Assembly: GCA_021209875.1 (NCBI GenBank)
Contig: JAGYVD010000008.1
Coordinates: 1,797,501-1,861,500 of the forward strand
DNA length: 64,000 nt
Direction of reading: 5' to 3'
DNA from: Rosellinia necatrix
Taxonomy: Eukaryota > Ascomycota > Sordariomycetes > Xylariales > Xylariaceae
In this document: piece by piece, positions 21,197-46,700 of the stretch
How the letters are laid out: each line of letters starts with the position of its first letter
Numbering within the stretch: the stretch's first letter is position 1
Made by a program: the position numbers and the translations under genes
The notes under the pieces: generated by a model
What the model was told of the DNA's origin: nothing
Databases searched by the model: none
What the model saw: the letters and a program-made list of their open reading frames with translations, nothing else

Positions 21197-23082
21197 CTAA
21201 TAAGGAGTCTGGTCATTTATTTCCCGTTCACTCCTCTCAAGGGCTGCAACCAGGCTTTCCAATTCGCAAATGACCGATTTGTAGAAAGCCCTCTGCAGCG
21301 GCGGGCTACCAAGGTCCGATCCATGCCCGAAGTCGCAGTCGATGCATTTCTGCGTGAGCTCTTGATACCGAGGCCCCAGGCGCCCGTTCACCGAGGCCAG
21401 CTTTCGGATCGTGAATACGTCGCTGGCGTCCAGTTGGCTCCAGCGGCCGATCTGCAAGAGCGCGACCCCGAGACAGTAGAGAGACAAGTTGCGGATGCCG
21501 TACGTAAGCTGCAATACCTCGCCGCTTGGCGGCTGCTCTGCTGTCGTCATCTCGTATTCTTCAGTCCCCAAATCCAGCCCTGTTCCAATATGCACCGTCT
21601 TCAGACAAGCAGAGAGCTCCGTGGCGGACGGGTCCTTGAAATAGGAAAGGTCCCACAGCGACCAATACTGCTGCCACCATGGAGTCCAGTGTAGCTGTAG
21701 ATGCCCTTTCGCTATTTGCAACACGAGCCGGAGCTGCTGTGTGACCGTCAGGTCGGCGTCTAGACTGCTGTTTAGGATATTGGTCAATGGGATCGCCGCT
21801 CTTTTTGGTGCCGACTTGGATACTGCGCCACCAACGTGGTTGCCTGGAAACAACGCGCGCCGCCGTAGGCAATCCGCCCCGAGAAAAGGCGTAGACGCCT
21901 GGTTCTCTTCAGCTAGTTGGAATAATGTCCCGCAGACGTTGTTAGATGTTTGTAAGTCGACGGACTTTTGGGGCTCAGGCGTATTCTCCGACGATACTGT
22001 GAGTGGTTCCCCTACAGAAGAGACCTGTCGCTGTCTTTTGGCGAGCGGATGTTCAGCCAATTGGTCGTCACGAGAAGGCTTAAAATTATTGGTGTGAGGC
22101 AACTCCGAGCATGGAATGGCTGTCGAAAGGTTCATCGCAAGGGCTCTGGTTTCACCGAGCGGCAACCGCGGCGGTTGTATAGTTAGATCCAAGGAGTGAC
22201 TGGATACGTATCAGGATATATACTCTTATACTCTTAAAAGGTCAGTTAGGAATGGGGGTCTTAATTACGTGGAAGTCGTGATACCGATCCGATGACGGCA
22301 ATGGAGAAAGATACGCATATCGTGACCGTCAAACCATTCTAGCAAGAGAGCTATCCGATGCTCTGCATGATGGACCTCTGCGCAGGACCAGCAGGATTTC
22401 ACAGAGTTGTAAAATGCTCTTGCGAGCTCCCCTTTCACACTATAGTCCGCGGGGATTGGCTTCTGTTCCCCCGCCTGAGCGACTATGTTGCTTTGATTGA
22501 ACTCCTTCGCCATTTTGCGCAGTCGTCTGAACTCTTGATTGAGCTCTTTAATGTGACCTATATCCGCCTCGTAGCTTGTCTTGTTAGTCGTGACACTGAC
22601 TGCCTCCCGGACTTTCTCAGTAGCAGTAAGCTGCGTTCGTTAGTCGGCGCGCTTCGTCATCTTAACGGGCCGTTACCGAAACATACCTTCACATTGCGGT
22701 CCGTGTCTTGTAAAGTATAGTTGAGTCTTTTATCGAGCGCCTGAATCTGACGGCGAATCTCTCCCAATGTTTCCTCGATAGACTCATATTTGCGCCCGAG
22801 ATATCGCTTGATCTTCTGATCTAGGTCGGGGTCGGCCCAAAGCTCGCTCTCTTCGTCTTCCAGCATAAAAACCACGTCATCCGGATTCACAATCTCCTGC
22901 AGGAGGAGATGACATTCGTCAAGAAACACATGCAACTGGGTTTTAAAGCTTCTACGTAGCCTCTGCAGTACCTTATCATGGCTCCGGAGGACTTTCAGCT
23001 TAGAACGCGTACCCTTGATGATCTTGATGGCCGATAGGGCGAGAGGTGCTATCCCCAGGCCGAGGGAGATTGGGTCCGCCAT
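21197..23082 (-). CDS. HeLo-like N-terminal plus DUF7580 C-terminal protein, 3 exons
   Basis: Exons 22687-23082, 22269-22630 and 21197-22199 join in frame into 586 residues. The N-terminus MADPISLGLGIAPLALSAIK, followed by a helical segment with LKVLRSHDKVLQRLRRSFKT and FLDECHLLLQEIV, is the fungal HeLo-like/prion-inhibition-type helical domain that opens many DUF7580 proteins. The C-terminal exon has the DUF7580 pattern: LRLVLQIAKGHLQLHWTPWW, WSLWDLSYF, YCLGVALLQIGRWSQL, LGPRYQELTQKCIDCDFG, LQRAFYKSVICELESLV. HeLo-like domains act as signalling or membrane-active domains next to fungal NLR receptors; DUF7580 resembles a degenerate kinase-like fold, but its function is not known to me. It is transcribed divergently from the zinc-finger/bZIP gene 381 bp away. 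The donor of exon 2 (CCAC|GTAATT) was chosen by phase. Confidence 0.82.
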
Positions 23083-23463: not shown

Positions 23464-26142
23464 ATGAATCCATCTGAATGGCGGGAGGCAGTCCGGCCGG
23501 GTCAGATATCTGATGAAGTAGTCGGAATCGCCAATATTTTTTCCGCCTGTTCAGAGCTATGGCTGCTCGCCACGCGGATCCTATCGCAGCAGGGTTCGAC
23601 AAAGAAAGGGATTATCCACAAGCTCGAAAGTGGCCGTCAATACCTTAACCTTTGGGCCGACGGGTATTCCGTCTTAGATGGACGTTTTGAGGATGGGTTG
23701 AAGAAGTCGCAAAGAGCTGGCGACTTGACAATCCGGTTGATGCAAAGCATATGCCGGATTCTAGCACAGGGTGAGTCATGGACAGACAGTAGCAGCGCGG
23801 TATGCGACGGGCCCATTTCTGATTTGCAAACCAGAGCTAGTCCCATGTATCACATCGATTGACATTTCGGGCGCGGACTTGTCACTGAAAGCCGCGGATC
23901 TGGTCCTTTCATCCGAAAAGTTAGCCGTGCTCGTCCAGGGAGATGACGATAGCGATGCCTTGAGCAACAGCGATTCAATAGCCGAGCCAGAGTCGATATC
24001 CCATGAGGAGAGGTTGGAAAATATCGCCGACGATCTGCGGAATGACACCCAATGCCTTCTCGACCTTGGAGCGAGGTTTGAGGAGCAGGTGATGAATCCT
24101 ATTATCATCGAAGCTACAGCTAATGAGACAACCCTGACAGTGGTGGGGTCGTCTCAAATATTCGTCAATCGAGTTCTTTGGTTCTATCCTCACTGCGAGA
24201 GAAACCTGTGCAGGCGTCTTGGGGAGGCTGCGTCAATGCAGGTATCGAGAATCGAGGAGTTGAAGCCGGCGACACGCGAGGTTCAACCCACACCTAATTC
24301 CAGGAGCGGCATATTCCAAAACGGGGTCTGGCATTGTATGTACATCGTGGAATTGAGCCCGGCATGCGGCTTTCTTCATCCTTCACCCCGTTAATAAGCC
24401 AGGCTAACATCCTTTTCCAACATGTAGGTAATTGCGAGCCACGGCTTATTGCTAAGATGGGGGTCGTCAGAAGGGACATCCCTATCTACGGCAGGAGATT
24501 CTACATGTGTCCCCAAATAGGGAACCGGTGCAACATGTTCCTCTTCGTCGAGGACGCAAGCGCGCTGGAGAAGGCATCCGCGACAGAGCATGTTGGTCAG
24601 CAAGCCGCCACCGTTGACGTGGCATCGATATCGGCCCCAACACGAACATCGGGAGGCCACAAAGAGCCGCCGGCGATGAGCGCGACGTCCGTGGCGGCAC
24701 GGAGCGGCGGCAGCGGAGGTCTGACTGAACTGCCCGACAGCTTTTACGCGACCACGTCCGACGAGGACGAGGATGACGACCCGGCCGGACGCGCTAGAGA
24801 TACCGATGCGGCCCGTGGCACTCGGAAAGCCGAGTCCATTGTGTCAAATGCGTCGTTGGGGATCTCTCATGCTCCAGAGTCAATAATATTCCACGACTCC
24901 GGCGTGGGGACATCTATACATACCAGTGAGGGTGGCTACGGTGCAGTCCTAGCACCATTAGGAAACAGGACGTATCCACGTCTCCCGGAGGGTGCGACTA
25001 AAGGAATACCATTCCAATGCACAGTATGCAGAAATCAAATGACGCTCACTACCGAGGCGGAGTGGAGGTTAGCGCTCGATTCCCAAGAAAGCGAGCATGA
25101 AGAAGCACTAACTTACCAAAAAAAAAAATAGGGAGCATCTCCTGTCTGACGTCCAACCTTATGTATGCCCAGAGACGGAGTGTGATGCGCATATATTCGC
25201 CACAATACCAGAATGGCAAAAGCACATTGATGATACCCATCCAACTGCGTCGATTTGGAACGATTCCGATTGCCGTATCTGTCAAATACCGGTCGCGAAC
25301 AAAGACGCTGTGCGTCAGCATCTTATCAACCATATGGAACATCTTGCCTTGGCGGTTGTACCATCAACCACGCAGCCTAAGAATGCAATTATCCCCGCCA
25401 TAAAGCCACAAGTTCTATCTACCAGTGAAATGACCGACAAACCCAAGAAACAATGGAAAATAAGGCCACAATGCAAGAGATGCCAGTGAGTTTCTAATTT
25501 AACCCATTACAACGTTCCACCTTACTAATGCTAGGCAAATAGACAAAGAGGCTACAAATGCGACGTGAAGGTATGGCTTTTTACCCACTTGAAATCCTGT
25601 CTTCCTCTACTCGCATCCGCTAACCTGCAAGGAAGCGGCCGTGCAATGTGTGTACTAGTTTAGGGATAGATTGCGTGGATGTCTCTCTACCAGGAGCCGA
25701 CCCGGTGGATATACAATCCCCCTCGAAAAGTCAGCGTAAAGAATACTCGCTGACGAGGACATCGGATTCTAAATCCGAACTATCCACTGCCGGTGGCTTG
25801 CTTGGCCGTGAGACTCACGTTCCTAAGGTCCGGTCCTCTCCTGTCCCGCCCGGATCGGACCGCCTCCCCATGGCGTATCCCCAGACAGGGCGGCTTCCGA
25901 CATCCAAGTTCCCGACTCCTTCCACGAGCTCGCCACAAGGAGGAACGTCATCGACCCCGGCCTCCGTCGATGACGGCTCGAGCTCGGTGGCGGCGAAGCG
26001 CGCGCGCAACACTCTCGCGGCGCGGAAGTCGCGGGAACGTAAGGTCAGGCAGCTAGAGGAGATGGAGGAGAGGATCGCCGAGCTGGAGCGCGAGCGCGAT
26101 TTCTGGCTACGTAAAGCTGCCCCTGGGCGTGATGAAGGGTGA
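23464..26142 (+). CDS. Multi-zinc-finger protein with GRF, C2H2, Zn2Cys6 and bZIP domains, 6 exons
   Basis: Exons 23464-23770, 23835-24335, 24428-25067, 25132-25485, 25543-25570 and 25636-26142 keep frame into 778 residues. In order: an N-terminal helical part of the kind that opens fungal C2H2 signalling proteins (WADGYSVLDGRFEDGL); a GRF-type finger at 270-312 (C270, C272, GRRFYMC to C297, C304, then FLFVED); an acidic linker (DEDEDDD); a degenerate finger C467/C470; C2H2 fingers C495-C500-H514-H519 and C530-C533-H546-H550; a perfect fungal binuclear cluster C597-C600-C607-C613-C616-C623 (spacing 2-6-5-2-6); and a C-terminal bZIP (about 731-770) with N735-x7-R743 and RARNTLAARKSRERK, very like GCN4/CPC-1. 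The cluster is formed only by splicing exons 4, 5 and 6, which supports the model. Likely a nuclear DNA-binding regulator; targets unknown. Confidence 0.82.
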
Positions 26143-26719: not shown

Positions 26720-28780
26720 TTAGGCATGAATAGCTGTCTGTACCTGTGGGTACACGCGCACCATCGCATCGTACAGGTCGGGGTGATTCTGCATCATCTT
26801 CGCGGGGTCCCAGGCGGCTGCCACGAAGATGGTGTCTACTCCACTGCTCAATGGCGTGGTGAAAATGTTGCAGATCTGCAGGCCGATAAGGAAAGCGAAC
26901 GCATCGACGACTACACAACATAATGATTAGTATGTCTCGTAGGTTTATTTCTGATGGTTGCTTACCGGGAGTATAAACGCCTCCACTGTTGTATGCAGGG
27001 GCCGTGAATTCCTACAAGCATATAATAATGAGTTTCATATTGCGTAAAAATCACCGAGAAAGAAGCGCGTGTGGGACTTACTAGATATAGGTGGGCTAAC
27101 AGGGCACAGGCGAACCCGACGAATGTGGCACCCATAGAGAATACAGGGCCGAGAAGGCATTCGTTGACTAGAGCGTCAATGCCGCGTTGCTTAATCATGG
27201 TCCAAGTGTCTTTAGCTGCCGCGAAATAGGGTTTCCCATATAGAGCAATATAGGAAAACGCATATCGATTGAGGAACTGGACAGCCCAATCTAAGAGGGA
27301 AATGAGGCAACCGAGAATTATGAATAGGATTGAAGCGATAACATTTCCCCTCGGCCGCCTCGCTTTGTCGAGCGATCGAACATATCTGACGTAGGAAGTT
27401 CAGAATGGCTACCAATAACGAGCCCAGGGAAATAGATCCGAAGGAGTAGGTAAGAGAACGTTTTAGAGCGCCTCGAGTCACTGCTCTTGGTTGTTCTGAT
27501 GATTTGAAAAAATACCAAGATCCAAACACGCCAGAAATAGTGGTGTGTGTCACATTCTTGAGGACTTCCGAAATCCACTGAGAAAAATTGTGTTAGCTAT
27601 GAACGATTTTGTGAAGAGGGGAGGAGCGAAGGCGCGCGAGGGGGAGGGGAGGGGGATTTGACGATGCTGGTGCTTTTCCCGGTCGCGCTGAATGAGAGAT
27701 GAGAGGGGCTCACATAAGAAGCGAACGTGATGAAGACTAAAAGACCTGTGACCTTGGCGGTGCTACAGCCACCACCCCCAGCCGAACACGCGGGGTTGCC
27801 GCCCCCAGGGCTGTATTTGGCGTATATGGCGACAAAAGTCACAGAGTAATAAGCTGCGAAGGCGGTTCCAAGGATTCCGGCCAAGAAGCTCACTAAAAAA
27901 AAACGTGACCGTAGCTCTTGGACACATCAACAGCCGTCTTGAGCATAAGAGCACTGAAAGGTATACGAGGGATCCAAGTCTGTCTCGTGTAAGCTGCGAC
28001 ACCACCATAGGACATACTGGGCGAACTGACGATAAACGCAAAGATCCAGAACGCAACGAAAATGAGAAATACGATGCCGCCTGACCAATAATGTCGGTAA
28101 AGCATATAAATGGCTGTGACCAGACCGAAAACGATATTGAGAATCCCTGCGGATGCTTAGCAGAGCTGCGACAGGCCATTATTCGAAAGTATGCCTACCC
28201 GTGACCCAGATAAAAGCACGGGGGAAAGTTCTGGCAAGGAGAACGTAGCTATAACTGAGGACGACGGCGACAGCCAAAACAAAGGCGAACAGGACGATGG
28301 TATTGGTATTCAAACCGGCCCGGGAATCCGAGTCATAAATCCCATCACCAAATGTGCGTTTGTCGGACGCTGTTATTCATTAGCATACCTGAAGTAATAA
28401 TGGCCTTCAATCCCAAAGCATGCCCCAAGCGCACGAGGATCCGAACAATGAGAGTTGGCATACCGTATCCATGAATCGCGAGCCCGGAGATGGCAACAAA
28501 ACCGGCACACACAAGGAGGAACTGGGTTGGGCACAGAAGGTCAGCCTACACTGGGCTACAGACTTGGGCGAGCGTGTCGTACGAGGATAGCGGCCCATAG
28601 ATCATTATATTTAGGTCTCTCTAGCTTGAACGCCTGGTCAAACATAGGCTTCTCGGAGTACTGGGGTGGCGGTGCACCATGTTGCTGTTGCTGCCCGTAG
28701 GGGTTCGCGGGCTCAGGATTATTAGGATTATTATGATTATTATAGTAGCCGGCGGCTTCGCCGTGTTGTTGATCAGCCAT
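26720..28780 (-). pseudogene. PNS1: PNS1-type choline-transporter-like protein, 7 exons, two frameshifts
   Basis: Exons (minus strand) 28583-28780, 28464-28521, 28199-28369, 27714-28146, 27082-27577, 26966-27011 and 26720-26910 total 1593 nt, about 530 residues, the usual length for Pns1. Family blocks: FDQAFKLERPKYNDLWAAIL, FLLVCAGFVAISGLAIHGY, GDGIYDS, KVTGLLVFITFASYWISEVL, YIALYGKPYFAAAKDTWTMI, RGIDALVNECLLGPVFSMGA and SSGVDTIFVAAAWDP. CTL/Pns1 proteins are plasma-membrane proteins with about ten membrane segments; choline transport by the fungal members is not firmly shown. Two breaks prevent a continuous frame: a one-base deficit in the T9 run (A9 on the plus strand at 27895-27903) and a one-base excess at GGGGAAA (27344-27350). 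They cancel in length. They may be real mutations or homopolymer sequence errors. Confidence 0.85.
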
Positions 28781-31377: not shown

Positions 31378-31500
31378 TGAGCTTAATATAAGTTGTTTTT
31401 GGTACGAGGCCGCAGCTAAAGGTGTAGTAAACGTATATTTATTTTTTAGTGTTAAATTTAATATATAGTTAGGCTTAAAAAACTAGCTGGAAAAATATTT
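31378..31500. repeat. Direct repeat copy A at left edge of AT block
   Basis: About 120 bp beginning AGCTTAATATAAGTTGTTTT recur at 31735-31858. Copy A keeps G/C bases (GGTACGAGGCCGCAGC) that copy B has as A/T (AATATAAAGCTGCAGC), so the copies differ mainly by G-to-A and C-to-T changes. Confidence 0.65.
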
Positions 31501-31734
31501 TATATTATATATACTATTTACTAATTAAAAAAAACTTAATTTTTTTTTAATAGCTTGTTATTATTAAATAATAAATAAAATAAATTTAAAGCTATTTTAA
31601 GCTTAATATATTTAAAAGTTAAAATTATAAAAAAAATTAAATAATAAAGCTTTAATTTTAATAAAACTTAATTATTTATATTATTAATAAAATATATTAT
31701 ATAATATAAATAATATATATTTTAAAAAAATATA

Positions 31735-31858
31735 AGTTTAATATAAGTTGTTTTTAATATAAAGCTGCAGCTAAAAATATAATAAACATATATTTATTTT
31801 TAACGTTAAATTTAATATATAATTAAATTTAAAAACTAGCTAAAAAATATTTAAATTT
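31735..31858. repeat. Direct repeat copy B, more heavily mutated
   Basis: Second copy of the 120-bp unit 357 bp downstream of copy A; transition-type differences only are apparent, as expected for RIP. Confidence 0.65.
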
Positions 31859-32765
31859 ATATTTTAAACATTTATTTTATTTATAAATAAAATAATAAAA
31901 TTAAAAATATAATTAATTTATAAAATAAAAAAAGTTAAAAATATATAATTAAATATAATTAAATAAATTTTTAAATAAAACTAGCTAAACAAAATAAAAA
32001 ATATAACTAAGTTTATAAATAAAAGCTTTTTTTAGTTTTTATAACTTTTTTAATAAATATAATAATATAATATAAATTTATTTTAAATTTAAAACGTTAA
32101 TAATATATTAACGCCTAGCTTTTAATAAATAATAATATTTCCGATTTTAAATAAAAACATGCTAGCTTATTATTAATTTTTAGCTTGTTATTATTAAAAT
32201 TATATAATAAAAATAAGTTTTTAATAAATTTTTTAAATTTAATATTAATTTATTATAAATTAAAAACTTATTATAATAATTAAACGTTAGATTTATTATA
32301 TTTATTATATATTTTATATTATAAAAATTAATAGTTATAATTTAAAGCAAATTTAATATTAATTTATATAAAATATAAACGTTTTTATATAAATAATATT
32401 AATATATAAACTTTTAAATATATATATTATATAAAAGCTTAAAAAAACTATTTAAATAAATATTTTAATATAAATTATTAAAACTAATATATAGTAAATT
32501 TAATACTAATTTATTATTAAATTAATATAAATAATATAAAAATTAAAAAATAATAAAATTTATTTATACAGGCTTAAACAGCTGCTTGTTATAATTATAT
32601 CGCGTTAAATATTTATAAAACGTTTTAAAATGCTAAAAATAAAAATTTGCTGTAAATTTATAATAAATTTAATGCTAATTATAAAGTTTTACTACGTAAA
32701 ACTATTAATAAAATCTAAAGTTAAAGTTTAAAGCAAAACAAATTAAAAAGCTGCTGCAATAAAAG

Positions 32766-32830
32766 CTTTTAATAATAATAATAATAATAATAATAATAGC
32801 AATAATAATAATATAAACAATAGTATAAAT
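32766..32830. repeat. AAT microsatellite
   Basis: An AATAATAAT run of about 45-60 bp with a GC interruption, inside the AT-rich block. Confidence 0.7.
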
Positions 32831-34318
32831 AATAATAAAAATAATAAAAGTTGTAGTAAAAAAATACAAATTTGCTTAATAAAAGTTTTTTTAAATGTTT
32901 TAATATTAAAAACTGTTAATAAATAAATTAGCTATAAATTAAGTTTAAATTTAATATATAATAGCTTAAACGTTAAATAAAAAGTATATAATATAAAATA
33001 TTTTTAAATAATTTAATTATTTTATGTTTTGCTGTAAATTTAATATAAATTTAATATATAATAATATATATTTTTTTATTTAGTAGTTTAAAATAAATTT
33101 GCTATAAATTTACTATATAATTAATTAAATATATTACTGCTAGATTTTATTAAAATTAAAAATAAATTTGCAATAAATTTAATGTTTATATTAAATATGT
33201 TTATTTATTTGTTAATAAAAACAAATTTAACGTAAATTTAATATTAAATAAACTTTTAAAATAAAATAATAAATATATTTAAAGTTTAGTTTTTATTAGT
33301 TTTATAATATAAAATAATTTAAGCTTATATTAAATATAAAACGTTTATTAGTTTTTAATATTTTAGCTAAAAATGTTTTATAATAACGTTTTATTATATT
33401 TAATATCTAGCGGCTTAAAAGTTTTATATTATTTTTATTTATGTTTATATTATATATATATTAAACAGCGCTTTATTTAAAACTATAACTTAAATATATA
33501 TTATAATTAATTTTTAAACATAATAAGCGGTTTTATAAGATTTAAAATGCTTTAGTTTTTAAAAAACGTTATATATAAAATAAAAAATAATAATAAATTA
33601 TATATATATATTAAAATAATACTTTATTTTAAAAGTTTGCTATATAAATAATTAAATATAATAAACTGTTTATAGCGTTTATTATTATATTTATTTTAAA
33701 GCGTTTTTTATTTATTTTTATTCTACGTAGTAATATTTAAAAATAGTTTTTATTTATTAAAAATTAAATTAATAATTTTAATAAGCTTAAAACGGCTTAT
33801 TTATAAAGCTTTTACAGGTCAGATTTATTATATATAATTTTGCTTAACTATAAAAGCTATGTTAAACTATTATAAAAGCTGCATTAATTATTAATTTATT
33901 ATATAAGTTTTTATTTATTATAGCTTTATTTAATATTAATTTAATTAAAAGTTATTTTAAAATTAAAGTTTTAATAAAGTTGTTTTATTTATAAAAAAAA
34001 AATATACTGTTTTTAAATTAAACGCTTAATATATAAATGTTTAAAATTTATATGTTTAAAAATAAGTTAATATAAATTAAACATAATATAAATATATATT
34101 TATTTAAAATTAAGCTTTAAACAAGCTATTATAAAAACTAAATATATAGTTATATATATATATAAAATAAAAGTTTATGTTAATATAAGCTAAGCTAGCT
34201 TGTTTTAACAAAAGTATTAGTTTTTATATAAGTTTGTTATAACGTTATATATTTTTTAAATTAAATCTGTTAAGCTTATATATAATAAATAAATATAATT
34301 ATTTTTAAAATAAAATAA

Positions 34319-35803: not shown

Positions 35804-38735
35804 ATTGTTGTTTTAGATCTTGTTTAAAAAACATAAAGTTAGGTTATTTTTAATAAAAACTATTAATTAAAACATAAGTTAATAATTGTTGCAAATTTAG
35901 TTTAAAATAAAGCATTAGCTAAATTATTATTTTATAATATAACCTGTTTAATTTAAAAATAAATATTATTTTATATAGCTAAAATAAATATTTTATAGAG
36001 CAAATATAATAATAAAAAGTTTTTTATAAATATATTAATTAAACTAGCTTATATAGTTATATTATTTATATAAATAATTATAATATTAAATATTTAATAT
36101 ATATATTAATATTAAAACGCGATTTAAATCGTTATAATTTTAAAAATATTAATATTTTATAATATTTTATTTTTAAAACATAAATAGCTATAAGCCTAGT
36201 TTTTAAAAATAAGTAGCGCTATATGTTAGTTATAAATATTTATTTTTATTTTAAATTAAAATTTATTAAGCTTTAATTTTAAAATATTTATAAATAAATA
36301 ATAAATTAAACGGTTGTTTATATTTAATATAAATATTTTATTAAAGTTTTTAAAGCGTTAAACTATTAAGTAAAATTTTATATTATATATTTAAATAGTA
36401 GTTAAAACAGCTGTAAGCTAAATTTAAATAATAATATTTATATATTATAAAAAAGCTTTGTTAATTAAAATTATTATAATATAAAAGCTTAAATACTTTG
36501 CAATTTTTTAGTTTTTTATAAAATATTTACGGTTTTAATATTATTTTAAATATAATTTGTTTTATTTTTTATTTTTTTATTAGCAAGCTATGTTTATATT
36601 AAAAACGTATTAATTTTAATGCTGAAAATTTTTATATAGATGTTTTTATAGTTTTTATTATAGTTTAAAATTAAGTTTAACGCGTTTAAAAACGGTTATA
36701 TTTTTAATAAATATTAAATATTTTTAAATATATAACATAAATATTATAAAAATAAAGTTGTTTAAATAATATATTATTAATATAAATAAAAAAGCTTTTA
36801 AAATTTAATGTAAATTTTAGCAAATAAGTTAAAAATAAAAAAGCTGTATATAAGCTAAACAAAAAGTAATTTTTATAAAAAAACCTTGATTTTTATTTAA
36901 ATTTAAGCAGCATTTATTATAAAAATACGATTAAAACTAATTAAAACGTGTTTTTTAAATTTTTTTTAATAAAATATATGTTTAAGCTTACGGCTTAAAT
37001 TAAGTTGAATATTTATTATATTATTAAATATTTAAGCGCTGCTATTTTAAGTTAGATTTAATTATTAATCGAGCTGTTTTTAAAAAAAAACAGATAATAT
37101 ATTTAACGTTATTTTTAAAAATTTTAAAATTAAGCTTAAAAAAAATAAACTAAGCTTGTAAAGCTGTTTTATTTTATAATTTAATTTTATATTAAATCTG
37201 TTTTAATTTATTATTTAATTATTAAATAGTTTTTATTAGCTGATTTTAAGTTATTTAAGCGGCTTAAATTAAAATAGTTTTTATAGCTTAAATAAGTTTT
37301 ATAGCATAAAATATTAATTAATAACTTTTTTAAGTTGCTTAAATAGTTTTATAACATTTTTTGCTAAAATTTAAATTAAAAAAAAAAATTAAAAAGCTAT
37401 AAATAAAAAGTTTGTTTAATTAAAAATTTTAAACTTTAGTATTATATTTGCTGCAGGTTTAAATAATAGTTTTAAAGCTAATGTTATTATTTAAATAATT
37501 AATAATATTTTAAGTTGTTTTTAAAATAAATACAAGTTAAGTTTTAATTAAATTATTAAGCTGTAATTAGGTTATAAAACAGCCGATTTATTTTAAGTTT
37601 TTTTTTTAATATAAGCTGGTTTTTTATATATGTTTTTATAGCAGCAGTATATATGCTTATAGTAATATAAGATTAAGCTAGCTTTAATATAGTTATAATT
37701 ATTTTATTTATTATAAAGTTTATTTTTTAATAAAATATATTTAAATATAAATTATTTTAGTTTAATCTGTTATTAAGTTAATATAGTTTATTATTTTTAA
37801 AGCTATAATTAATAAATAGCTAAATTTTTATTTTTAATTTTATTTTAATTATAAAACAGCTATATATAAAATTATTAAATAATATTTTATATAAGCTGCT
37901 GTAAAAAAATTACTACTTTTAGTTTATATATTAAATTTAATTTATATATTATATAAATAAAATTGTTTATAGCTAAAACTATATATAATTATAATTTAAA
38001 TAACTATATATAAATTGCTATAAAAATTAAAAACTTTATATTTAAATAAAAATATTATTTTTATATGTTTTTAATTTAAAAATATTATTTATATTATAAT
38101 ATTTTTTTTAGTTTATATATAAAACTATAGCTACGTTTAAAATATATATGCTTTTTATTTATAGTTTAATTAAGTTTATTAGTTTAAAGTTGCTGCAAAA
38201 TATTGTTATAATCTGTTTTTAATCGACTTTAAAAAACTAACCTGTTATTAATTAAATTATAAAAAATAATTTATATATTTTAGCAGATTTAAAATTTAAA
38301 TTTAAGCTTTTTAAACAGGCTAAATTTAATCTGATTTTAAATTTAAGTCGGCTTAGCCGAAGTTTTTTTTTTTTTTATATTTAAAATGCTGCAAATAAAA
38401 ATATAGCTTGCGTTAAACGATTTTTTTTTTTAAAAACAAAAAAATGCTTATTATATTAGCTTTAGCTTGTTTTTTTAAAAAAAGTTGCAAGTTTAATTTA
38501 ATATAAATATAAATTAATAATAAGCTAAAAATTATAATATTATTTATATCGTTAAAAAATTTAATTTATATAGTTGCTAAAAATAAAACTTTAGCTTATA
38601 TATTTTTTGCTATATTATTAGCTTTAAAACAAAAAAATATCGTTATAAATATAATATTATTATAACTTTTAAACGTTTTTTTAATATTAAAATATTTAAT
38701 TTGTTATTTTTTCTTTTGTTTTAATAAACGAATTC

Positions 38736-39049
38736 GGGACTATTTCGAGCCTAATATGCCTAAGAGTTAGGGTTATAAAAGGGGAAGTTGGGTGGTGGAG
38801 CCCTGACCCTAGTAGAACCTAATCATTAATAATATGCTTCCAAGGTTGCTTTATAAGGTCCAAGTATTTCGCAGTTGCTAGTATAGTCCCCGCTCATCCC
38901 CAACTCCGACATGATCCCAATCGTGTTGTTTAACAAACGTACGCATTGATCTAGCTGCCTCGCTACCGTCCGTCGTCCACCTGTGCTTTTCACCTCACGT
39001 GTACATTAGGAATCGTCTGAACGGTGGATTCCGCTCATCGGACACAGCC
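38736..39049. other. Border region and promoter of F-box gene
   Basis: Normal base composition resumes abruptly at about 38735. No TATA box is obvious; no other coding sequence. Confidence 0.45.
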
Positions 39050-40030
39050 ATGCCAAAGGCCAGCCTCGGTGAGGACGAGGGACTGGGGGTGCTAGAAGAC
39101 AAAACAGAAGCTCTAACTCTCCATTCAAAGCGTACGGAGCGAGCTCGGAAGAGGCGGATAAAGAAGACCATGAAGGTCAAAGATTCTCCAGGCCCTCTGG
39201 GCTTCCTGGGCTTCCTACCTTATGAGCTGGCCATGGAAATCATCACGCTTCTGAGACCTAGCGATCTCTTCAACCTGCAACGGACGAGCAGGCCGTTTTA
39301 TGATTTCATCGCCCGGGAGGAGGCTAGGATCGCCCGGCTCGTGTCGGGTTGGCGTTATGCTTGTTTGGAGAAGTGCCTTCGACTGCCGGTGCTGCTTGCA
39401 AATGTCGACCCGACGATCCACTGCCTCCTGCAGGCACCAGAGCGCCAGGAGATTCTAACAATTCATAAAAAACCATACCAGCATATAAAATCTCCAGAGC
39501 CTACCGAAGTATGCACATGCCTTACCTGCACACTGAGATGGTCCGCGTTGGCTATCATTGTTGATTTCGCTCATTGGCAGAGACATCTTGACGAAGGCGA
39601 ACCTATCCCTATGATTCCACGCGGGAAGCTTCCTGAATGGAACCAAACCCTAATTGCTGCCCACGCGGCCATTGTACGTAAGGCATTGTACAGCCCTCTC
39701 TGGCATGCCTACCTGCTGGAAGTCCACCTTGATTCGACTACAAGGTCGATACGGCGGCATGCCGCAAATAAGGGAAATAAGCGGCGACGGTATCGGATGA
39801 CCGAAGACGATGTGAACTCAGGAACAGATGCTTTTCTAGACCGGAGCGGCCCGCCATCACTCGACTTCCCATATCATAGAGACAATTACTATCTGCTCGA
39901 GACTTTTTTACCAAACCGTTGCTGGAGCCAGGACCAGTCCAGTTGGCTATATGTGCCTGCCGAGCAACATGATAGGGATATCGAGTTTGTCGTTATGTGG
40001 GCAGAACGTCGAAGGAGAGCTGTAGCTTGA
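39050..40030 (+). CDS. F-box domain protein
   Basis: A single-exon frame of 326 residues from the first in-frame ATG (an open non-ATG extension reaches 38999). A basic N-terminal stretch (KRTERARKRRIKKTMK) precedes an F-box at about residues 50-90: GFLPYELAMEIITLLRPSDL, then FNLQRTSRPFYDFI. The remainder (EARIARLVSGWRYACLEKCL, CTCLTCTLRWSALAIIVDF, LPNRCWSQDQSSWLYVP) is of the type found in many fungal F-box proteins that have no recognisable substrate domain. F-box proteins link substrates to SCF ubiquitin ligases. It begins about 315 bp to the right of the AT-rich block, so its expression may be affected by that chromatin. Confidence 0.82.
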   Translation: MPKASLGEDEGLGVLEDKTEALTLHSKRTERARKRRIKKTMKVKDSPGPLGFLGFLPYELAMEIITLLRPSDLFNLQRTSRPFYDFIAREEARIARLVSGWRYACLEKCLRLPVLLANVDPTIHCLLQAPERQEILTIHKKPYQHIKSPEPTEVCTCLTCTLRWSALAIIVDFAHWQRHLDEGEPIPMIPRGKLPEWNQTLIAAHAAIVRKALYSPLWHAYLLEVHLDSTTRSIRRHAANKGNKRRRYRMTEDDVNSGTDAFLDRSGPPSLDFPYHRDNYYLLETFLPNRCWSQDQSSWLYVPAEQHDRDIEFVVMWAERRRRAVA

Positions 40031-43790: not shown

Positions 43791-46700
43791 TTGGTGTATG
43801 GTAGTACGAAGCGTAACCTATATGGCGACAAAGATTACAGCTATGTAAATCTTTGCCTTGCCGAACCTCAAACAGCGGATGTTGAGGTGGTGATTCGGGC
43901 TTTTAAGTCGGGGTTATCTAGCCAACGTGTCTTGGTAGAATTCCCTGGCATCCTCTTTGCATCCTTTCAGTCGATCCTGGTCGCGTTGCAGCAAATATAC
44001 AAAACTGCAGACTTACCTTTTAGTGAGATTCTAGCGCCGAACGAAGATGGCCCTGAGACCCTTACAATTCCTCCCCCTTTATACTTGACCAAGCCAGGGT
44101 TTTCCTTCATAATAATAAGAGCCAGTTCTAATTATAGATTATAGGCGATTCTAAAGGTTCTTCTTGACAATACAAGCGCTGCGAATAGTGGCCCAATACT
44201 CTGTGTGCGTTATACAAACCATGCATTGGACCAGCTGTTGGAGCATCTTTGGCATCGTGGTATCACTCAGATTGTTCGCATTGGTAAACGCTCAAAATCC
44301 ACGCTTCTCGAAAACCTTAATTTAAAAAAGCTAGCGCAAGACATCGAGCGCACAAAGGAAGAAAAACGGGATGCCTATCACCAAGTAATCAAACTCGTTG
44401 CCATTGAGAACGAGTTCCAAGCGTGCTTGGATCGAATGAAAAACGCAACCCCAGCTAAAGCCATAAAGGAATATCTGGGCCGGTGTGGCGAATCCGCTCT
44501 TCAAACTGCTATGTTCGGCGCTGAGGCAGAAGAAGGATGGACTGAGGTCACCTTTCAGGACGACAACGAGTCATTGCATGCATGGGTTTGCGCTGGCACA
44601 ATTTCACAGGACATACCACGGCCAATAAACATATTGAGAGCTCAGCCTTCTGATAGCCTAAGCCGACAGGAACGGCAAGCGCTCTGCCATGTTTGGGCTT
44701 CGGAGCTAATGGAAGACCACGTCGAGCAATTTTTATCTCTAGAAGCGGATCATCGTCAGGCCAAACATGATTTCGAGGCTGTGCGCCGAGAAGTCGAACT
44801 ACGCGTTCTTTCTCAGTGCAAGATCGTTGCAGTAACTATTACTGGGCTTGCTAGTAATCTAGACCTGCTTCGGAAAGTAGATTCCAAGATTTTACTTTGC
44901 GAGGAAGCTGGTGAAGTGCTGGAAAGTCACATCCTCACGGCCTTGCTTCCTTCGCTAGAGCACGTTATTTTGATCGGCGATCATCTTCAATTGCGCCCTC
45001 AGGTAGCAAACTACGACCTATCCGCAGACAATCCTTCAGGACATGCATACGCTTTGGATGTGTCACTTTTTGAACGACTGGTGAAGCCAGTCCATCCGAA
45101 TCAGCCGAAGTTACCGTTTGACACCTTGAATATACAGCGAAGGATGCATCCATGTATATCAACGCTAATACGAGAGACCATATACCCAGATCTCGAGGAT
45201 GTCTCTCATTTATCTAACTATCCGGAAGTGGTTGGCATGCGGAAGCGGCTGTTTTGGTTTGATCACGACAACCCTGAGAGCAGGGCGGATCCTACACAGC
45301 CATTGAGCACTTCTCGTACAAACAATTTCGAAGTAGAAATGGTAGCCGCCCCAGCTTCGCATCTGTAAGCAATCCTCTAGGTTATTTCCTTATTATTCCA
45401 GTAATCTTTAGAGATATAGATGCCTCTCTAAGCCCAATTCCCTATTCTAGAATCATCCCCTATCTCTAAACTTAGCAATTGCGCCATAAAGTATCATTAA
45501 CTGACCACGAGTGTTGTAGTGCGCGACAAGGTGTCTACGCTCATGATCAGATTGCAGTACTTACACCCTATCTTGGGCAGCTATACGAACTTAGGAAGAG
45601 ACTCGCAACTCTTTCGAGATAGTTTTGGGTGATCGAGACATCAAAGACCTCGATCGAAAAGGTCTTGATCTGATACGGAAAATCCCACGGGTTTCCAGAA
45701 GGAGCCTCTAGGAAAATGCTTGACGCTGGCCACGGTCGACAATTTCCAAGGAGAAGAGGTTGAAATCGTCGTGATTTCCGTTGTACGTAGCAACCCAGAC
45801 GGCCAATGCGGATTTTTGAAGACATCAAACCGCATCAATGTCTTGCTTTCATGTGTAAAGCATGGCATGTATCTCTTTGGCAGCGCTAGGACTTATTCTC
45901 ATGTCTAATTATGGTTAGAAATCATTGGTATGCTGAAGACTGAGGGCAATTTCGGTACTAAGTTGCCGCTTCAATGCCCACGCCATAAGGGCACGGCCAT
46001 CAAGATCGGAAGCCTCGACGATTTTGCGAGACTATCGCCTGAAGCAGGTTGCAATCTTCAATGTCGCCAGCGACGCCACTGTGGTCATACTTGCACTAGT
46101 CCTTGTCATTCAGCGGTTTTACACCAGGCTGTAAAATGTCTCGAACCCTGCCCACGATCAAGACCATTCTGCGATCATCCGTGCCCGAATGTCTGTGGTG
46201 ATCCATGCGAAGGACAATGCTCAATCATTCTTGAATCATATAAGCTAGAATTGCCTTGTGGCCATGTTCTAGTCTCTCCTCAATGTTGGCAAGCCCGCGA
46301 TCCTGCGTCAGTCACGTGTACTACGCCTACCGAGAAGACCGAACCCGGCTGTGGTCACAAAGTCAGGGAGCCTTGTCATGAAGACGTAAGCAAGAATTCT
46401 TATAACTGCAAGGCCAGATGCGAACATCCCCTGGGTTGTGGGCATTTATGTTCAAGGGCATGCGATGGATGCAGAACACGTGTCGAGGGTCGGGTAACGG
46501 ACGAATGTCACCCACCATGTCCTTTGCGGCCGAAATTATAGCACATGTGCACACGCCTGCTCAATGCAATGCCATCCAGGCAAGGATTGCTTACCTTGTG
46601 ATAAGCCTTGCGAAATACAATGCGAACATAGCCGCTGCGGGAAAAAGTGTTCAGAGCCCTGCGCACCCTGTGCCGTGGGAACATATTGCTCTGCTTGCCC

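Follow-up and report, generated by a model that had tools for sequence, protein, structure and literature searches.

GCN4/CPC-1, the bZIP activator of the amino-acid-starvation response, is among the best studied eukaryotic regulators and recognizes the site TGA(C/G)TCA. Fungal factors of dual specificity, which combine DNA-binding domains of two classes on one chain, were counted in a 2017 survey by Shelest; according to the sections available to us, 10 of the 191 fungal genomes covered have a Zn cluster with a bZIP (never more than one such factor in a genome), 9 have a bZIP with C2H2 fingers, and 140 have a Zn cluster with C2H2 fingers, Cmr1p and Pig1p being examples of the last (PMC5415576). 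The accessible part of a further article contains nothing on Zn2Cys6 and bZIP in one protein (PMC8396895), and no report of a Zn2Cys6 protein with a fused CPC-1 bZIP was found in the open-licence literature. The original prediction for the gene described here had presented a chain bearing both Zn2Cys6 and bZIP as an unknown architecture; as the survey's sections show, it belongs to a class already listed (PMC5415576).

This gene lies in a 64,000-nucleotide stretch of Rosellinia necatrix DNA, the whole of which is called the window below, from a genome of 49,113,603 bases in 12 contigs (largest seen, 7,159,521). It reads as one open chain with a conserved order of modules, ending in a bZIP of CPC-1 origin in which contact residues and zipper core are retained. 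P0001 (SAMD00023353_3900920, 780 aa), a protein of R. necatrix, matches it at 91% over the whole length, with the same module order.

Gene model and modules

Rebuilt from the sequence, six joined exons form one open frame of 778 amino acids plus stop at 23464-26142 on the plus strand, a splicing pattern that we infer from the genomic letters; the five GT-AG introns measure 57-92 nt, and each holds a branch-site-like motif. All residues named beforehand (C270/C272/C297/C304, C597/C600/C607/C613/C616/C623, N735 and R743) occupy their predicted positions in this model, whose features are as follows.

23464..23770, plus strand: exon 1, with the start codon; residues 1-103, first part of the N-terminal helical domain
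23835..24335, plus strand: exon 2, remainder of the N-terminal helical domain, plus the first nucleotide of C270
24335..24549, plus strand: GRF zinc finger (residues 270-310), interrupted by intron 2; Pfam 24.2 bits
24336-24427, plus strand: intron 2, which splits the GRF zinc finger
24428..25067, plus strand: exon 3, with GRF, a linker predicted to be disordered, and the first part of the C2H2 module
25012..25363, plus strand: AcuF-type C2H2 module, residues ~465-560; PF26082 precomputed for relatives
25068-25131, plus strand: intron 3, which splits the AcuF-type C2H2 module
25132..25485, plus strand: exon 4, in which the Zn2Cys6 cluster begins
25472..25674, plus strand: Zn2Cys6 cluster C597-C623, spread across exons 4, 5 and 6
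25543..25570, plus strand: exon 5, a micro-exon of 28 nt carrying C607 of the cluster
25571..25635, plus strand: intron 5, inside the cluster; its retention truncates the protein before the bZIP
25636..26142, plus strand: exon 6, with the second half of the cluster, a linker, the bZIP and the stop
25996..26142, plus strand: CPC-1-derived bZIP and stop, residues 731-778

The original prediction took the formation of the cluster across three exons to argue against chance. Among 207 two-intron GT-AG combinations tried there, 17 keep the frame open as far as 26142 and only one, that modelled, yields the Zn2Cys6 pattern, while 2 of 95 single-intron combinations stay open and neither yields it. Independent support for the 28-nt exon comes from P0001, in which the cluster is continuous at the same place. 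The exon 4/5 and 5/6 intron positions, which flank the micro-exon, match break points of Xylaria gene models, and by this comparison both positions appear conserved.

The N-terminal domain is predicted to be helical to about residue 246 (window 24265) and single-copy as far as the genome search goes. Its proposed NLR-associated character found no support in these searches: no NACHT/NB-ARC or defined NLR N-terminal domain matched the 778-residue model in Pfam, nor did any NLR or STAND domain match the gene, and fold searches returned helical bundles only. With the predicted models of P0001 or P0137 as queries, no PDB chain matched this domain at E 0.001. The AlphaFold2 model of P0001, built with 18 sequences, has a mean pLDDT of 53.8; it comprises an N-terminal helical bundle (blocks mostly 70-92), a low-confidence region from 248 to 452 that includes the GRF, an ordered C2H2 module, and a bZIP formed as one helix (728-773). 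P0137, which contains little beyond the N-terminal part, was predicted to consist of helices as well.

The calls of GRF, Zn2Cys6 and bZIP in the window rest on motifs and on Pfam scores near the cut-offs. For the GRF (PF06839), the spliced model scores 24.2 bits against a curated cut-off of 25.9, the GRF exon alone 26 bits in the genome search, and P0001 32.7 bits; the Asn of the N-x-GR motif in P0001 is Ile in the window. A structure search with the P0001 stretch identified NEIL3 as the nearest solved relative of the finger. The GRF pattern is found only in the window gene and P0001, the latter being the single case among 21 homologue models. At the inter-domain gap where Rosellinia has the GRF, P0006 and P0016 carry C2H2-like finger inserts, and this gap is perhaps a hot spot for finger insertion.

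The two clean C2H2 fingers of the original prediction are both present with the full Cys/His pattern (C495/C500/H514/H519 and C530/C533/H546/H550), and a third finger, C467/C470/H485, is partial. PF26082 is precomputed for P0001 and many relatives, and the window module is identical to that of P0001 at 94 of 98 residues. The Zn2Cys6 cluster, described beforehand as perfect, is complete as a pattern (C-x2-C-x6-C-x5..12-C-x2-C-x6..8-C) and falls just short as a domain match, with Zn_clus (PF00172) at 20.6 bits under a curated cut-off of 21; the cut-off is passed in P0001 (22.7) and in P0003 from Xylaria (31.9). It sits at residues 597-623 of 778, not at the N-terminus as is usual for Zn2Cys6 regulators. 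The bZIP_2 domain scores 20.3 bits in the spliced model against a cut-off of 22.3, 23.9 bits in the frame of the last exon alone, and 20.7 bits in P0001, again under the cut-off; 3 of 12 homologues scanned exceed it (P0003, P0008 and P0009). In a structure search, GCN4-DNA complexes were the best solved relatives of the bZIP.

The surroundings of the gene contain the following.

21197-23082, minus strand: neighbour in divergent orientation; 381 bp separate its start from the start codon of the chimera
26962-27399, minus strand: choline-transporter-like protein (PF04515), the neighbour on the downstream side
38915-40030, plus strand: F-box protein, beyond an AT-rich island
44145-45368, plus strand: AAA_11/AAA_12 helicase-like frame, beyond the AT-rich island

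The divergent neighbour had no Pfam match; it begins MADPISLGLGIAPLAL..., a start that we take to resemble fungal STAND-type/DUF7580 proteins. AT-rich blocks of 7-15% GC lie at window 31500-34000 and 36000-38500, separated by a stretch of 26-45% GC, near the middle of contig C10 and about 5 kb from the end of the chimera gene. These blocks look like RIP-degraded, perhaps pericentromeric, DNA.

Homologues and the origin of the bZIP

With 7,992 candidates scored, the homologue search returned 22 proteins at E ≤ 0.001; a search with a ten-member alignment scored 7,988 and returned 18 at E ≤ 1e-10, adding relatives from Apiospora. Patterns were checked in 21 models, 19 of them named as Xylariales or Apiospora (Xylariomycetidae) and two without a name (P0017 and P0018); in NCBI taxonomy, Rosellinia and Hypoxylon belong to Xylariales and Apiospora to Amphisphaeriales, all within Xylariomycetidae. 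A complete Zn2Cys6 and a bZIP share one chain in 10 of the 21 (P0001, P0002, P0003, P0005, P0006, P0008, P0011, P0013, P0135 and P0136), a bZIP occurs without a complete cluster in three (P0009, P0015 and P0017), and eight lack the bZIP (P0004, P0007, P0010, P0012, P0014, P0016, P0018 and P0139). Six further proteins were left out of this count: P0019, with a bZIP-like stretch and no cluster; P0137, a 343-aa piece with neither; and P0138 and P0140-P0142, also with neither. One gene encoding one chain, as originally proposed, is supported by the end-to-end match of P0001 and by homologues with the same module order except for the GRF, and two distinct genes were not seen among the homologue models examined.

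Five of the eight bZIP-less models end 20-30 residues past the third cysteine, which corresponds to the site of intron 5 in the window; P0007 stops at the site of intron 4, P0012 does so close to it with an unclear tail, and P0139 has lost the second half of the cluster and continues differently. P0009 lacks about the in-cluster stretch that the micro-exon encodes in the window. Short and long models of nearly the same protein exist in X. flabelliformis (P0007, P0009) and X. arbuscula (P0010, P0013). Because such near-identical models from one species run into the bZIP, its loss looks like gene-model choice or splicing, and the truncated models are best read as gene-model choices or real retained introns.

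Judged by sequence comparison, the fusion bZIP derives from the C-terminus of CPC-1. The original description of a GCN4/CPC-1-like C-terminal bZIP was right as to type and understated, since the segment comes from CPC-1's own C-terminus. The genome has its own separate CPC-1 on contig C4; the window bZIP shares 32 of 50 residues with it (100 of 153 nucleotides), the stop codon falls in the same column, and its distance to the basic-region Asn is equal in the two. The N-x7-R basic region keeps N/A/A/S/R at the positions that contact DNA in bZIP proteins, and the zipper a-positions (LIRA) are those of CPC-1, with d-positions MLW against LLW. Of 12 fusions tested, 9 retain the contact residues, the exceptions being P0008, P0135 and P0136; the bZIP of Apiospora arundinis is divergent, with Leu for the contact Ser and T/I/Q/T at the a-positions. 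Separate CPC-1 copies are also present in Xylaria acuta, Xylaria sp. FL1777 and Apiospora aurea. The N-terminal part of CPC-1 is absent from the window gene, which is not a CPC-1 orthologue proper.

This comparison was extended with the C-terminal half of Xylaria P0003 as query. Of the 280 proteins returned, 120 were listed; 8 of these are fusions, the query itself being one, and 112 are not. Among the matches listed, all 112 non-fusions have the bZIP pattern, 108 have a DKPLPPI-type stretch ahead of it, none has a complete Zn2Cys6, and many are named cross-pathway or general control protein. They align to 21-49%, mostly 22-24%, of the Xylaria half. The stretch common to CPC-1 and the Xylaria fusion starts upstream of the basic region and stops at the common stop; its DKPLPPI part is no longer recognizable in the Rosellinia fusion.

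In a tree of the N-terminal domain and C2H2 module (496 columns), the Apiospora group joins the Xylariaceae/Hypoxylaceae group at 99/99. Because complete fusions occur in both groups, these sequences suggest that cluster and bZIP were probably present in the common ancestor, before Xylariaceae and Apiosporaceae split. The bZIP tree (71 columns) does not resolve, and the fusions need 5 changes on it; a single clade of fusions is not rejected (p-AU 0.476), a result that does not demonstrate one clade. Fusarium P0019 and Apiospora P0138 fall outside both groups on long branches, and their joining may be false. P0019 (Fusarium sp., 1236 aa) begins with a related N-terminus and C2H2 module and continues with a CPC-1-like stretch in which Lys replaces the basic-region Asn; it has no cluster, and it had no Pfam match at E 0.01. 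A second bZIP-like basic stretch is visible by eye near its C-terminus. With its CPC-1-like stretch and no cluster, P0019 may reflect either an earlier stage or a second, independent capture, and the modules may have been gained in more than one order.

Divergence between the window gene and P0001 (70 of 778 residues) is unevenly spread. Differences number 1/51 in the bZIP, 4/98 in the C2H2 module and 13/248 in the N-terminal domain, against 38/304 in the linkers and tail, so that all three are better kept than linkers (uncorrected Fisher p 0.027, 0.021 and 0.005, respectively). The Zn2Cys6 (6/33) and GRF (8/45) are no better kept than linkers (p 0.41 and 0.34), with all their cysteines retained. 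Against the rest of the protein, the N-terminal domain alone is significant (p 0.015; bZIP 0.076, C2H2 0.087). Because these three parts are better kept than linkers, the comparison suggests that the helical domain, C2H2 module and bZIP carry the function in Rosellinia; it also suggests that the GRF and Zn2Cys6 deserve less weight than they were first given. The prefix SAMD00023353, borne by P0001, is used for R. necatrix genes, and reads of strain CH53 on strain W97 differ in 0.75% of bases in mapped regions, according to the available part of the report (PMC6933693). If both copies are from one species, a 9% residue difference would seem high, and the gene is possibly highly polymorphic.

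Proposed role and alternatives

The gene probably encodes a chimeric, CPC-1-tailed second regulator able to meet CPC-1 at its sites. An ancestor composed of the N-terminal helical domain and the AcuF-type C2H2 module would have gained the Zn2Cys6 cluster and the final 50 to 70 residues of CPC-1, down to its natural C-terminus, with the GRF between helical domain and C2H2 either gained or kept by Rosellinia alone. The product would enter the nucleus and bind CPC-1/GCN4-type sites, TGA(C/G)TCA, as a homodimer or with CPC-1. Because it lacks the N-terminal part of CPC-1, it would bring its helical/C2H2 part to these sites instead, and may thereby compete with or redirect the amino-acid-starvation response. 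In Xylaria the Zn2Cys6 may make a second DNA contact, which in Rosellinia would be weaker or in decay. Both the DNA binding and the function of the protein are predictions.

A less probable, still credible alternative is that the gene is an ordinary dual-specificity factor born of domain shuffling, with no particular link to CPC-1 regulation. The surveyed frequencies, in the sections cited above, are in keeping with this (10 of 191 genomes for Zn cluster with bZIP, 140 for Zn cluster with C2H2 and 9 for bZIP with C2H2; PMC5415576). However, mere assortment would not lead one to expect a bZIP that is specifically CPC-1's, with contact residues kept in 9 of 12 fusions.

It is doubtful that the Xylariomycetidae possess a second, splice-gated starvation arm, in which the chimera, devoid of the CPC-1 N-terminal part, would pair with CPC-1 at its sites and splicing around the 28-nt exon would decide whether the DNA-binding tail and Zn2Cys6 are made. 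About as doubtful is a regulator whose main product would be truncated inside the Zn2Cys6, leaving the helical and C2H2 parts, with the DNA-binding tail added conditionally by removal of both introns beside the micro-exon. The bZIP-less models that end at the intron 5 site (5 of 8) and, for P0007, at the intron 4 site agree with such gating, as do the six alternative splice choices examined for introns 4 and 5 of the window, all of which truncate the protein before the bZIP, including an acceptor for intron 5 at 25631, 4 nt upstream. Gene finders that miss a 28-nt exon would give the same pattern, however, and near-identical Xylaria genes are annotated both ways (P0007/P0009 and P0010/P0013).

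There is very little to suggest that the model has joined two adjacent genes or taken in a fragment of a bZIP gene. The bZIP-coding exon is an open frame in itself (172 codons, stop to stop), M689 precedes the bZIP within exon 6, as does a Met in the checked fusions of Xylaria, Hypoxylon and Apiospora, and intron 5 ends in AAG, a less usual acceptor than CAG or TAG; yet the same fusion recurs in 10 of the 21 homologues, whose models come from several annotation sources, no Met separates cluster and bZIP in P0001, and the second half of the cluster shares one exon with the bZIP. Equally improbable is a decaying gene whose modules are drifting remnants, which would account for Pfam scores just under cut-off and for the linker-like divergence of GRF and Zn2Cys6 between the two Rosellinia copies, but not for a frame intact in both, with identity at 50/51 residues of the bZIP, 94/98 of the C2H2 module and 235/248 of the N-terminus.

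Relation to known regulators

If the chimera is indeed a CPC-1-tailed second regulator, a conserved gene that joins the DNA-binding and dimerisation end of GCN4/CPC-1 to a second DNA-binding class offers a natural experiment on how an old network takes in a new regulator. There is a warning for annotation as well: the in-cluster 28-nt exon can give truncated models (8 of 21 homologues are without a bZIP), and such chimeras may therefore be undercounted.

Among described systems, AcuF-type C2H2 proteins (PF26082) have the C2H2 module in common with the window gene; their distant relatives P0138 and P0140-P0142 carry neither the Zn2Cys6 nor the bZIP pattern, unlike the window gene. The GRF finger resembles that of NEIL3 in its four Cys and GRRFYMCP motif, and differs in setting, being a single finger in a regulator-like protein rather than in a DNA-repair enzyme. 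Cmr1p and Pig1p have C2H2 fingers followed by Zn2Cys6, as in the window, and are described without a bZIP in the survey's available sections; there, the C2H2 and Zn2Cys6 unit is N-terminal in all but one of the A. nidulans set, unlike its place here (PMC5415576). Factors with a Zn cluster and a bZIP likewise bear both classes on one chain, as in the window, and those sections give counts for them, with no description of C2H2 or GRF on the same chain or of a CPC-1 origin (PMC5415576). CPC-1/GCN4 itself is alike in contact residues, zipper core and C-terminal end; in place of the CPC-1 N-terminal part, the window gene has the helical domain, GRF, C2H2 and Zn2Cys6.
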